This document shows, piece by piece, positions 17,453 through 21,194 of a stretch of 64,000 bases of DNA. Source of the stretch: a virus; the IMG/VR virus record IMGVR_UViG_3300034117_000713, positions 1 to 64,000 of that record; one strand, 5' to 3'. Numbering within the stretch: position 1 is the first letter of the stretch; each line of letters starts with the position of its first letter. Made by a program: the position numbers and the translations under genes. The notes below the pieces were generated by a model. That model was not told where the DNA came from, ran no database searches, and was given only the letters and a program-made list of their open reading frames with translations.

Positions 17453-17754
17453 TGCTAAACAAGTACACAGAACTATACAAGCAGGTTGTAAACGATTTAG
17501 TAACCATGCATAATGCTAATATGCATTTGCAAAACAAGCCAAATCAGACATCTGCATTGAAAGTTAGGCATGCCATTATAGCTTTAGAAAATGATCTAAA
17601 CCAACTTCGAAAAGTTGTAATGCAGTTTCAAAGAGACCATAAGGTGTATTTGAAAGGCCAAAGACTTGAGTACAAGGCTTCGCTCAAGGCAAAGAAAGAA
17701 GCAAAAGCTAAAAGAAAAGAACTTAAGGAAAAACAAAATGTCAACACAAAATGA
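17452..17754 (+). CDS. Small basic helical protein of unknown function
   Basis: 100 aa, predicted almost fully helical. The last 40 residues are strongly basic (ASLKAKKEAKAKRKELKEKQ). The ATG overlaps the gp46 stop as TAATG, and the end overlaps the next gene by 17 nt, so it belongs to the gp47-gp46 transcription unit. I do not recognise a family. A nucleic-acid-binding role is possible from charge only. Confidence 0.7.
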   Translation: MLNKYTELYKQVVNDLVTMHNANMHLQNKPNQTSALKVRHAIIALENDLNQLRKVVMQFQRDHKVYLKGQRLEYKASLKAKKEAKAKRKELKEKQNVNTK

Positions 17755-17932
17755 ACTACAAGCTGCATTTGATGCATACATGGCCGAAGATGCAAAGTTT
17801 ACAGCAGGTAACAGTGCTGCTGGTACTCGTGCTCGCAAGGCATTAGGTGAAATGAGCAAGGCTGTAAAGGCTCGCCGTAACGAAATTACTGCTGAAAAGA
17901 ATGCTCGCAAGGAAGCCAAGGCGGCAAAGTAA
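17738..17932 (+). CDS. Small histone-H1-like basic protein
   Basis: 64 aa. The ATG at 17738 follows an AAGGA site. A longer frame from 17666 exists but has no ribosome-binding site and would overlap the upstream gene by 89 nt. The sequence MSTQNELQAAFDAYMAED followed by AAGTRARKALGEMSKAVKAR and a Lys/Ala-rich tail resembles small histone-like proteins common in T4-like marine phages. It should bind DNA or coat nucleic acid, though this is inferred from composition. It ends directly against the TTG start of the nuclease gene. Confidence 0.7.
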   Translation: MSTQNELQAAFDAYMAEDAKFTAGNSAAGTRARKALGEMSKAVKARRNEITAEKNARKEAKAAK

Positions 17933-18364
17933 TTGAACAACTGGACTTATCAGAGTGCTGAAGTCTTAGAATTACCTGAAGACTGTATTGGTTTTGTTTA
18001 TTGCATTACTAATACAGTCACAGGTCGCCGTTATATCGGCAAAAAGTTAGCAAAATTTAGTAAAACGACCTACAAGACTGTAAAGTTAAAGAACGGCACC
18101 AAGAAGAAAAAGAAAATTAGAAGTAAAATTGACAGCGACTGGCAGGAATACTACGGATCCAGCGTTGAACTATCTAAAGACATAGACGCTTTAGGCAAAG
18201 ACAAATTCACCCGCGAAATATTACATTACTGTAAAAGCAAAGCAGAAACATCTTACGTTGAGGCCCGAGAACAATTCGACCGCAAAGTATTAGAATCCGA
18301 CGAATATTACAATGGACAAATTTCTGTCCGTGTACATGGCTCACACATTAAATCCAAACTTTAA
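17933..18364 (+). CDS. GIY-YIG-like endonuclease, TTG start
   Basis: 143 aa. GFVYCITNTVTGRRYIGKK (about residues 18-36) matches the first two strands of GIY-YIG nucleases, followed by the basic stretch KLKNGTKKKKKIRSK, a YYGSS turn, and a helix KFTREILHYCKSKAETSYVE with a glutamate in the expected metal-site position. It starts with TTG directly after the preceding TAA; no in-frame ATG exists before the motif, so the TTG is the only workable start. Such genes are found as free-standing homing-type or DNA-repair nucleases in T4-like phages. It sits next to a large structured non-coding stretch. Confidence 0.7.
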   Translation: MNNWTYQSAEVLELPEDCIGFVYCITNTVTGRRYIGKKLAKFSKTTYKTVKLKNGTKKKKKIRSKIDSDWQEYYGSSVELSKDIDALGKDKFTREILHYCKSKAETSYVEAREQFDRKVLESDEYYNGQISVRVHGSHIKSKL

Positions 18365-18842
18365 GGCAACTTAATTCAGTTATAGCTCGCACAGGCTAAT
18401 ATCGTGTGCCGAACAGTAGAAACCTGGACATCGTGTCGCAGGAATCCGAAGTCTTACCGCTGAAGTAAGCACTCAATCAGTATCCTAACCGGACCACGAT
18501 CGCAAAATGCCTGCGGTTTGATTGTTTGAATAGAGTTAAAATAAGGCCCAAGGATGGAGTAATAACAGAAACTCCACGCTTTACAAATATGATAGTGTAT
18601 ATTTGTAAGCCGCCGTTGAAATAAGACAGAGCGAGTAGGTATCGGTCAACCGCCTACGCTAGCAGAAATGCTAATAGTTCTAACACTATGTGACTGTGCT
18701 ACTCAGATAATGCAGTTTTTTCTTAGCCCTTGCCTGGGCTAAGTGTGACCGATTAATCTAGATAATATTTAAATGCTACGCATATATCATATAACTAAAT
18801 TGCTTCGAGCGTAAGCGAAGAAGCAAATGAGCGTAAGCTCAT
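18365..18842 (+). ncRNA. Candidate large structured RNA (478-nt gene-free region)
   Basis: No credible ORF lies here. At least eight stems can be drawn on the plus strand: 18453-18457/18465-18469; 18555-18560/18571-18576; 18581-18590/18599-18608 (10 bp perfect); 18630-18639/18653-18660 enclosing 18643-18645/18650-18652; 18660-18664/18669-18673 with a GAAA loop; 18722-18729/18736-18743 (8 bp perfect); 18800-18806/18820-18826 topped by GC-GTAA-GC; and 18826-18832/18837-18843 with a GTAA loop. A pseudoknot is possible: 18430-18435 with 18495-18500 interleaved with 18436-18442 and 18510-18516. Three GNRA-type loops on this strand support plus-strand transcription. It resembles in style the large ornate phage RNAs (GOLLD, ROOL), but I cannot assign it to a class. 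Confidence 0.5.
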
Positions 18843-18850
18843 TATAAATA
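18843..18850 (+). promoter_or_regulatory. T4 late promoter, perfect TATAAATA
   Basis: Exact TATAAATA, 24 nt before the ATG of the 464-aa protein, directly after the last hairpin of the structured region (the hairpin's final T is the first base of the octamer). Confidence 0.75.
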
Positions 18851-18874
18851 TACAATAATATTTCGGAAATAATA

Positions 18875-20269
18875 ATGGATATATCAGCACTTATCAAAAA
18901 ATTAGATGTGATTGAAAGCAATCAAAGAGTTAGTATCTTTGAAAGCCTAGGTTGTGGTGATGCTTACTTTGAAACCTGGGAACGAGAAATACATCCGGTG
19001 CTATGTGAAGTAGCCATGGATCCTGAACAGGTAAAGCAGTTATTCACTTCTATCGAAAAGGGTGCTGGCCGTAGTGCATTAGGTAAGACAGGTGATGCAC
19101 TAAAGGGTGCAAAAGATAAAATTAGTGATGTTTGGTTTAATAAGTTTGGAGGAATGTTACAAAGTAGCAGTCCTGTAGCAGCGTTTGATCAGAAGTTTGA
19201 AGATATTAAATCAAAGATTGCTGCAAAGAATCCGGAACTGGCAGCTAAGTTGGCCAAGTACGGAGAGTTTGCTAAGAACAATCCTAAGCTACACAAGTTC
19301 TTGTTAGGTATTGCGGGTTCTGCCGCCGCAGCATTAGGAGTTGCTTTAGCAGGCGGTATTGGTGCAGGTGTCCTGGCTGTGGGTACAGGTGCAGGTATTG
19401 CTGCTGGTATTATTAATATTGCTGATCGTTTACTTCAAGGACAGAAAGCCAGTACAGCGATTGGTCGTGGAGCAACAGCAGGCATTGTTGCAGGCATTAC
19501 CGCAGCCGCAATGGCAGGTATTGGTGAGTGGGCAGCTGGCCTGCGTGAAAAATCTATTCCAATTGGTGATACCGGACTCGAACAAATAAGTTACAAGGCA
19601 ACAAGAAAGTTAAGTTCGTTTGGCATGGAACATACTGAGATGACACAGGGATTTAATGTAACTGTTGATGCGGATGCAGCATCGGGAATTAGATCGGCTG
19701 TGAATGCTATGCAAAATGGAGATACTACAGCATTTACTGAACTTCAACGACTTGGAAGATTAGTTCATTCTGCAGATTATAAAGCACAAATGAAAGATAT
19801 TGCAGGTGCTGCAAAAGATATTGCATTAAGCAATGACAGCCTGTTGCAGTGGATCAAAGGTCTAACACAGGCAGCATCGGCTGTTGGCGGTGCCGCAGCA
19901 GGGCAAGCAGCAGCAGGAGTTGGTGAAACTCCGCCAACTGCACCTAAACCAGTAGCAGAGTCCTTAAACAGAGCACAACTAAACGAATTGTTTGGCATCA
20001 CGGGCAACAAAGTAGATGCTAGCAAGTTAGAAAAAGCGTGGACTAAAGCAGGAAGCCCTACGGACAGCGAAGAAATTAAACAGATTTTAGTTGGTGCAGG
20101 AGTTGATAAACAACTGGTAGCAACTGCATTTGCTGATCTAGGAATTGAAGTTAGTTCTACATCAGCAGACCCTACAGGCGAAACGGTAAATATAGAAGAA
20201 TTGTTAGCACAGATTTCAAATTTAAGTGCTGCTGAACAAAAAGAAATTTTAGCTTACGTCCAAGCGTGA
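18875..20269 (+). CDS. Gly/Ala-rich virion protein with membrane-like segments
   Basis: 464 aa. Residues ~1-60 are helical (ALIKKLDVIESNQRVSIFES). Residues ~142-188 are a long Gly/Ala/Leu/Ile stretch (LGIAGSAAAALGVALAGGIG and onward) and ~197-222 a second one (ATAGIVAGITAAAMAGIGEW), both able to span or insert into membranes. The C-terminal part has helical segments RAQLNELFG, EEIKQILVGAG and LLAQISNLSAAEQKEIL. It has its own perfect late promoter, so it is a late, probably structural or internal protein. I do not recognise the family; a role in DNA ejection across the membrane is a guess from composition. Confidence 0.65.
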   Translation: MDISALIKKLDVIESNQRVSIFESLGCGDAYFETWEREIHPVLCEVAMDPEQVKQLFTSIEKGAGRSALGKTGDALKGAKDKISDVWFNKFGGMLQSSSPVAAFDQKFEDIKSKIAAKNPELAAKLAKYGEFAKNNPKLHKFLLGIAGSAAAALGVALAGGIGAGVLAVGTGAGIAAGIINIADRLLQGQKASTAIGRGATAGIVAGITAAAMAGIGEWAAGLREKSIPIGDTGLEQISYKATRKLSSFGMEHTEMTQGFNVTVDADAASGIRSAVNAMQNGDTTAFTELQRLGRLVHSADYKAQMKDIAGAAKDIALSNDSLLQWIKGLTQAASAVGGAAAGQAAAGVGETPPTAPKPVAESLNRAQLNELFGITGNKVDASKLEKAWTKAGSPTDSEEIKQILVGAGVDKQLVATAFADLGIEVSSTSADPTGETVNIEELLAQISNLSAAEQKEILAYVQA

Positions 20270-20282
20270 TCAGGAAAAACAT

Positions 20283-21194
20283 ATGAAAATTATAGAATTA
20301 GTTGAAACTCGTGAACCTATTGAAGAAGGTCCAATTTTAAACAAGTTAGGATCTATGGCAGGCAATGCAGTAGGCACAGTAGCTAAAGGCGTAGGTGCTG
20401 TAGCAGGCGGTGTAGCAGGTGCATGGAATGCTGCCAAGAAAGGATATCAAGCAGGCAAAGCAACTGTAGGTGCCGCAGGAGATACAGCACCGGCAGCAGG
20501 ACCAGCAGCAGGACAAGGTACAACAGCAGCACCTGCCGCAGCAGCAGCAGGCCAACCAAGTGGGCAACCAGCAGCAAACACTCAACCTGCACCAACACAA
20601 GCTGGTCCAACAGCAGGTCAAGGTGCAACAGCAGCTCCGGCAGCAGCGGGTCAAGGCGGAAACGGAGGTGGTGCAGCAACTCAACAGCCAGCAGCAAATC
20701 CGGCTATTGCTTCTTTAAAAGCACAAATTGACAAATTAGATCCTGCAAGCAAAAAACAATTATTAACAACATTGCAAAAAGGTGGGCAAGCAGCGGCACC
20801 TGAAGCACCAGCAGCAGCACCTGAAGCACCAGCAGCAGCACCTGAAGCACCAGCGGCGGCACCTGAAGCACCAGCAGCAGCACCTGAAGCACCAGCAGCA
20901 GCACCTGAAGCACCAGCGGCGGCAGCACCGGCAGCTACTACTCCGCCAGCAGGGCAAGCACCTGCTCCGGCAGCAGATAAACTTTCAACTAAAGATCAAA
21001 ATGCATTGAAAGCTAGATTAAAAGCCAAACAAGGCACCGCAGCAAAGACACAAAGCGGATTTAATCAATATGTACAGGGCGGTGGTGGATCAACAATGGC
21101 AGGTGCTGATGCACAAGGTAATCCTGTATTCAAACAAAATGTTCAACGTGAAAGCGTTGAATTCTACAGTAACTTCTTAGGTAAAATAATTTAA
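20283..21194 (+). CDS. Ala/Pro-rich repeat protein, probable internal virion protein
   Basis: 303 aa, 13 nt after the 464-aa gene and co-transcribed with it. The N-terminus MKIIELVETREPIEEGP is followed by a Gly/Ala/Val amphipathic stretch (about residues 20-60), a long Ala/Gln/Pro/Gly low-complexity region, a helix PAIASLKAQIDKLDPASKKQ, six copies of the heptad APEAPAA (20796-20921) and an ordered-looking end (RESVEFYSNFLGKII). The helix resembles the C-terminal helix of the upstream protein (ISNLSAAEQKEIL), hinting at partnership. No enzymatic motif. The end overlaps the convergent minus-strand gene by 4 nt. Confidence 0.6.
   Translation: MKIIELVETREPIEEGPILNKLGSMAGNAVGTVAKGVGAVAGGVAGAWNAAKKGYQAGKATVGAAGDTAPAAGPAAGQGTTAAPAAAAAGQPSGQPAANTQPAPTQAGPTAGQGATAAPAAAGQGGNGGGAATQQPAANPAIASLKAQIDKLDPASKKQLLTTLQKGGQAAAPEAPAAAPEAPAAAPEAPAAAPEAPAAAPEAPAAAPEAPAAAAPAATTPPAGQAPAPAADKLSTKDQNALKARLKAKQGTAAKTQSGFNQYVQGGGGSTMAGADAQGNPVFKQNVQRESVEFYSNFLGKII
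20796..20921 (+). repeat. In-frame 21-nt tandem repeat, six copies (two 63-nt blocks)
   Basis: Units start at 20796, 20817, 20838, 20859, 20880 and 20901 and encode APEAPAA. Copies 3 and 6 end in gcggcg while the others end in gcagca, so the array is two identical 63-nt blocks. Confidence 0.95.

Follow-up and report, generated by a model that had tools for sequence, protein, structure and literature searches.

A predicted large structured RNA of T4-like phages, with the Polynucleobacter-1 motif as its 5' domain and two heptamers that vary in step

Introduction

What does the longest gene-free part of a T4-like phage genome contain, and what could keep two distant words within it identical while both of them drift? 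The window analysed here comprises the first 64,000 nt of a viral record of 151 kb (IMG/VR IMGVR_UViG_3300034117_000713). Positions 18365-18874, 510 nt in all, form its longest part outside any open reading frame (ORF) of at least 60 aa, the runner-up being 159 nt long, which confirms the unusual gene-free stretch noted in a sequence-only reading of this DNA. That reading proposed a large, ornate RNA of the kind that phages carry and whose role is unknown; as a class of molecule the proposal stood, while the particular pseudoknot drawn in it did not, nor did the view that no sequence match would assign it, the 5' third being covered by Rfam family RF01718.

Results

The search with Rfam covariance models that had been suggested for this interval left GOLLD, ROOL, group I intron, tmRNA and RNase P without a match at gathering score anywhere in the window. 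RF01718 (Polynucleobacter-1) was the only Rfam 15 family to reach that score, spanning 18384-18527 of the plus strand with 85.2 bits, the gathering score being 37, and covering model positions 1-141 of 141, so the statement that no sequence match would assign this RNA has to be withdrawn. With the threshold relaxed to E ≤ 5, the interval 18300-18900 gave just RF01718 and a chance match to a snoRNA, and none of the five models unmatched above. The only paper that we found to name the motif lists it, in a table line, as probably an RNA, probably cis-regulatory ('y') and of ambiguous riboswitch status, with Burkholderiales and fresh water or estuary as its sources (Weinberg et al. 2010; PMC2864571). 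Three other identities were rejected: a tmRNA, with its tRNA-like domain and tag ORF, since ARAGORN found none; a group I intron carrying a GIY-YIG ORF, since no core model matched, no gene is split and the RNA lies between complete genes; and a reverse-transcribed template RNA, as in retrons or DRT systems, since the 151-kb record, which may be incomplete, contains no RVT_1 domain.

Homologues were retrieved in two ways. Through the protein of the upstream GIY-YIG gene, 80 viral loci were collected, and DNA resembling the stretch follows right after that gene in 57 of them, along nearly the whole length in 47. A DNA pattern derived from the RNA's 3' portion, and blind to both the GIY-YIG protein and RF01718, yielded at least 120 more stretches, nearly all with the RNA and mostly at full length. 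Full-length homologues occur across hundreds of uncultured viral contigs and share no conserved ORF; the longest ORF in the homologues has a median of 55 aa against 57 aa in shuffled sequence, in agreement with the absence of coding potential first read from the window. The cultured phages Melnitz, V45v66, ACP17, BUCT-ZZ01 and ACG-2014f possess the GIY-YIG gene and lack RF01718, blastn of the cores of both RNA types described below against INPHARED (50,697 phage records) gave nothing credible, and no copy was found in plasmids. A pattern scan of genome contigs gave seven matches, with the RNA in only one of them, a short contig of a Bacteroidetes MAG (L086). Next to a full copy, one locus holds a further, partial match to the RNA's 3' portion, inverted and at the contig end (L179:1-109), possibly an assembly artefact.

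The first alignment comprised 121 non-redundant sequences with a mean identity of 65% and a median extracted length of 498 nt. Covariation was tested with a home-made procedure resembling R-scape (G statistic, APC correction, null alignments evolved on the tree), and 15 of 117,855 pairs, distributed over 18391-18837, reached E < 0.05. In a second, independent alignment (MAFFT, 72 sequences), a 104-pair structure had 88.1% of its cells paired against 72.9% after shuffling, and 1115 doubly changed cells against 345, so the covariation among homologues that a structured RNA had led one to expect was found in both data sets. Sliding the structure by one to three columns lowered pairing to 37-45%, a control that is somewhat flattering because the structure was drawn from overlapping data; more weight rests on the double changes. 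Helices 15 and 21-23 score poorly on the 72-sequence alignment because MAFFT shifted their columns.

Folding energy was, as anticipated, better than that of dinucleotide-shuffled controls, the plus strand beating 100 of 100 (z −3.5); the minus strand nevertheless performed no worse (z −3.7, all 100 beaten), so the strand cannot be told from folding energy alone. The plus-strand polarity previously read from the window is instead supported by conserved G-U pairs, which would read as A/C mismatches on the minus strand; 18498/18518, for example, is G-U in 70 of the 72 homologues.

The comparative model describes an RNA of about 470 nt (18375-18843, plus strand), predicted to fold compactly, with no fewer than four pseudoknots. 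At its 5' end, 18375-18380 pairs with 18459-18464, in the loop of hairpin 18451-18457/18465-18470 (pseudoknot a; helix 1, 84% paired, double changes in five of six pairs), and a small pseudoknot at 18384-18397, joining 18384-18386 to 18395-18397, reaches into the loop of hairpin 18389-18393/18405-18409 (helices 2 and 3, 93.5% and 99.7% paired). A three-part domain follows at 18474-18524 (18474-18479/18519-18524, 18480-18485/18491-18495 and 18498-18503/18513-18518; helices 7-12). The pseudoknot drawn in the sequence-only reading, 18430-18435/18495-18500 interleaved with 18436-18442/18510-18516, is no better than chance, with 50.8% of cells paired in 72 homologues against 50.9% after shuffling; 18423-18442 forms a local hairpin instead. 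Two stems drawn at the same time fared well, both being conserved with covariation: the 10-bp stem 18581-18590/18599-18608 of the long hairpin at 18579-18609 (helix 16, double changes in 11 of 11 pairs), and the 8-bp stem 18722-18729/18736-18743, paired in nearly all of the earlier alignment, whose hairpin (18722-18743) separates the modules A and B treated below.

The loop strand of the long hairpin, 18592-18598, pairs with 18683-18689, immediately 5' of module A, in pseudoknot c (helix 17, 96.8% paired, seven of seven pairs doubly changed). In pseudoknot b, 18615-18619 pairs with 18646-18650, within the loop of hairpin 18635-18639/18653-18657 (helix 18, 97.5% paired), and two of its pairs covary against the tree-based null (18617/18648, E 0.0099; 18619/18646, E 0.036). 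The core is closed by helix 18628-18632/18677-18681, which contains the top covarying pair of the whole RNA, 18629/18680 (E 4.9e-6). A short extra hairpin at 18658-18675 is an insertion in the core of the window's RNA, and most homologues have a link of 2-4 nt in its place. Toward the 3' end, hairpin 18802-18824 (helices 22-23; 18805/18821, E 0.0025) includes a conserved GA/GAA internal loop that looks k-turn-like, and the terminal hairpin with its weak U-tract (18826-18843; helix 24, 95.9% paired, six of seven pairs doubly changed) is the probable end of transcription. Just 3' of the RNA, on the same strand, 18843-18850 reads TATAAATA, which we take to be the consensus of T4-type late promoters; within 130 nt around the RNA 3' end it recurs in 34 of 119 homologues, compared with 0.9% of control windows, and NATAAATA is found in 76 of the 119.

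The RNA exists in two types. RF01718 was matched over 1-141 in all 16 type I loci scanned. Type II (L012, L029, L051 and others; at least 120 stretches) keeps the 3' core, including pseudoknots b and c by inspection, and has a different conserved 5' domain, in which RF01718 is not matched. Comparison of the predicted folds thus shows a 3' core common to both types and a 5' domain that is replaceable, RF01718 in type I and another in type II, and since type II retains the core without it, the part described in Rfam is the replaceable one.

Some of the significant pairs are not of Watson-Crick type. At two of these, 18705/18760 (GG 70, AA 51) and 18709/18764 (AA 81, GG 40), the two columns carry the same base without exception, and at 18700/18755 they mostly do. 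These columns belong to two plus-strand modules about 55 nt apart, A at 18690-18711, with GUGAC-N5-NACUC followed by heptamer A (18705-18711), and B at 18745-18766, with GUGAC-N5-NAUCU followed by heptamer B (18760-18766), both heptamers being AGAUAAU in the window. The word varies as [AG][GAC]AU[AG]A[UAG], and its two copies are identical in 121 of 121 sequences, among which ten variants occur. For a test with sequences that had played no part in finding this identity, three more scans were run and the core was realigned with a profile, giving 303 distinct cores, the earlier sequences included; the heptamers are equal in all 303, always with CUC before the first copy and UCU before the second, and a divergent locus outside this set (L026) has AGACGAA in both copies. 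The borders are sharp: offsets 0 to +6 are identical in 303/303, offsets −3 to −1 always differ, +7 is identical in 46 cores and −4 in 301. The spacing of the modules, by comparison, is loose (47-66 nt) and falls in all three frames. Fitch counts on a tree of 257 GIY-YIG proteins give at least 59, 14, 29 and 17 coordinated changes at the four variable positions, figures that may be overstated if the RNA recombines; on an RNA tree built without the modules there are 22, 6, 12 and 8, the same in both copies. Purine transitions predominate among the changes.

Several possible partners or readers of the heptamer were considered and discarded. The RNA contains no third column covarying with it, and no third copy was found. 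A partner inside the RNA was rejected, as no exact complement exists in the 121 RNAs and G-U-tolerant complements number 72 against 72.7 for other variants; the GIY-YIG protein was rejected as a reader, as none of its residues is associated with the heptamer. A repeated promoter or operator was likewise dismissed, the own genome having 22 matches against 20 for the reversed pattern, and neither the heptamer nor its complement is enriched in about 980 kb of flanks. A mini-ORF or ribosome bypassing does not agree with a frame that closes after a median of six codons, no better than the other frames. For a local hairpin around module A (4.05 against 3.90 with shuffled partners) and for a helix joining the N5-6 segments of the two modules (3.94 against 3.61), the excess is small and no structure could be drawn.

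Directly 5' of the RNA and on its strand lies a gene for a SegE-like GIY-YIG endonuclease (17933-18364; PF19835 at 1.1e-33), grouped with SbcD/SbcC-like genes (gp47/gp46) and with one for a histone H1-like protein. Among 99 loci found independently by the DNA pattern and having upstream sequence, the GIY-YIG gene is immediately upstream on the same strand in 94, 770-1000 nt away in three and absent in one, and gp46 is upstream in 87; in the type II loci L012 and L014, a whole gene separates the GIY-YIG gene from the RNA. The Histone H1-like Hc1 protein (PF07432) encoded at 17738-17932, ahead of the GIY-YIG gene, occurs at only 24 of 109 homologous loci, and a 'histone H1' gene of cyanophage S-SRM01 is the region's only blastn relative among phage records. 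On the 3' side, the plus-strand Gly/Ala-rich gene at 18875-20269, with no match in Pfam or PHROG, is not a fixed partner, and the gene in this position differs in kind and strand among homologues. By mechanically called ORFs, 180 type I loci could be scored for the next downstream gene, which is on the RNA's strand in 116 and on the opposite strand in 63; for the 69 type II loci the figures are 8 and 60. Such variability does not fit a leader role for the RNA class as a whole.

Discussion

We consider it fairly probable (about 0.6) that the plus strand of this T4-like phage encodes here a structured RNA, about 470 nt long, which acts in trans through two coupled modules. Its transcription, ends and stability are deduced from the nucleotide sequence. 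The RNA would start some 10 nt after the GIY-YIG gene of the gp47-gp46-GIY-YIG group and close with a terminator-like hairpin ahead of a late promoter for the next gene. Its core, by comparison of homologues, contains two equivalent modules, in each of which a helix is followed by GUGAC-N5-NA, by CUC or UCU as the pyrimidine triplet, and by a heptamer that has to be equal in both. The folded RNA would do its work during infection by itself, as an oligomer or together with protein, and would not serve as leader to a gene beside it. Two observations weigh against a trans-acting role: Polynucleobacter-1 was rated as probably cis-regulatory (Weinberg et al. 2010; PMC2864571), and the tie to the GIY-YIG gene would also suit a 3' UTR.

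According to the comparative model, RF01718 is just the 5' third of this RNA. The first 144 nt, at 18384-18527, agree with the Rfam model from end to end, but the model has 141 nt, whereas the conserved, covarying structure extends from 18375 to 18843; the first strand of pseudoknot a falls 5' of the model, and the 3' core lies outside it and is present without it in type II. The cis-regulatory location assigned to the motif is also at odds with a downstream gene that is so often in opposite orientation. What has been listed since 2010 as a probably regulatory motif of 141 nt would therefore form just one end, and an exchangeable one, of a large phage RNA that has two subtypes around a conserved core and is present in several hundred uncultured T4-like viral contigs. 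GOLLD and ROOL are likewise large pseudoknotted phage RNAs whose role is unknown, but ours has no Rfam match to them and is shorter than the 659-nt ROOL and >800-nt GOLLD examples (PMC12286853). Their location near tRNA genes differs from that seen here, the 64-kb window being devoid of tRNA genes, and an RNA-only homo-oligomer is a further trait of theirs.

The identity of the heptamers most likely reflects a direct coupling of the two modules. The word drifts freely provided that both copies agree; an outside reader would need dozens of matching changes without ever tolerating an A/G difference between the copies; and such a reader is neither the GIY-YIG protein nor another part of the RNA. 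We tentatively favour, at somewhat less than even odds, heptamers coupled to each other and to no external reader. They would either touch within the RNA or an oligomer, as equal strands in a quasi-twofold or parallel arrangement, or be tied through a copying or strand-transfer process that demands identity. The contact could accordingly be a quasi-twofold tertiary or inter-molecular one, or the complement of one copy might be annealed to the other; a phage-encoded factor far from the locus could also impose the coupling. In the dimer of OLE RNA, an A-A helix has four highly conserved A-A pairs (PMC12286853), a precedent for conserved same-base contacts between RNA strands. Our RNA differs in having a mixed 7-nt word that varies in step, and shows no sequence match to OLE. 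In the bypassing element of T4 gene 60, some 50 nt and a hairpin separate two matched words. The present RNA also has two matched words around a hairpin, and in a T4-like phage, but the match concerns seven nt and not a codon, the upstream frame is closed, and the spacings fall in all three frames (for the gene 60 gap, see PMC11194080).

Among the alternatives, the one that survives best is a dual-guide RNA, in which both heptamers pair with a single target in phage or host RNA or DNA and guides and target change together. Such a guide agrees with the dominance of purine transitions and with a pair of words that are equal, exposed and alike in structural context, but one A/G position changed at least 59 times and, even though U as the partner would accept either base there, not one unmatched copy was seen; moreover, the reverse complement is enriched neither in flanking phage DNA nor in the own genome, and we regard a guide as unlikely. 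In nidoviruses, the leader and body TRS must be identical for the nascent strand to anneal. A strand-transfer site of this kind, with the nascent complement of one heptamer annealing to the other, is decidedly doubtful here: it would account for a short identical word that drifts freely between different fixed flanks (CUC/UCU) on either side of a hairpin, but the spacing is loose, we know of no phage polymerase that performs such a transfer, and RVT_1 was not found in the possibly incomplete 151-kb record.

The remaining alternatives place the RNA in an mRNA. A 3' UTR element of the gp46/GIY-YIG operon, protecting the mRNA or regulating the nuclease genes, is what the position right after the GIY-YIG gene at 94 of 99 loci would suggest, and is nonetheless rather improbable, given the loci where that gene is absent or 770-1000 nt off, the whole gene intervening in L012 and L014, the isolates that share the GIY-YIG gene without RF01718, and a length and fold (470 nt, four pseudoknots) far beyond the needs of a stabilising hairpin. 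A leader or riboswitch acting in cis on the downstream gene, in line with the tentative rating of Polynucleobacter-1 (PMC2864571), agrees with the 116 of 180 type I loci in which that gene is on the same strand and is very improbable in view of the opposite arrangement at 63 loci of type I and 60 of the 69 of type II and of the terminal hairpin and late-promoter consensus standing between RNA and gene.

With the trans-acting RNA and its coupled modules as the preferred reading, the same-letter covariation of two distant heptamers, with no exception in 303 sequences, is a clean and rarely seen kind of signal. Standard covariation tools seek Watson-Crick pairs and so would not report this lock as structure; the heptamer pair offers a precise and cheap test case for such a mechanism. 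If direct coupling holds true, it would impose on the RNA an evolutionary constraint of obligate same-base covariation over seven nt, with the word itself free to drift, of which we know no described example in bacterial or phage RNAs.

Two minor observations concern the downstream proteins. The one encoded at 20283-21194 carries a tandem PEAPAAA repeat and has no Pfam or PHROG match. Among 115 distinct first genes after type I RNAs, 83 encode M..[LIV]xE within the N-terminal 13 residues (MKITDLIVEQ, for example), compared with 8.6% of upstream genes. The capsid-targeting propeptides of T4 are cut by the prohead protease, and since these N-termini resemble them, the variable Gly/Ala-rich proteins encoded after the RNA may be internal head proteins.
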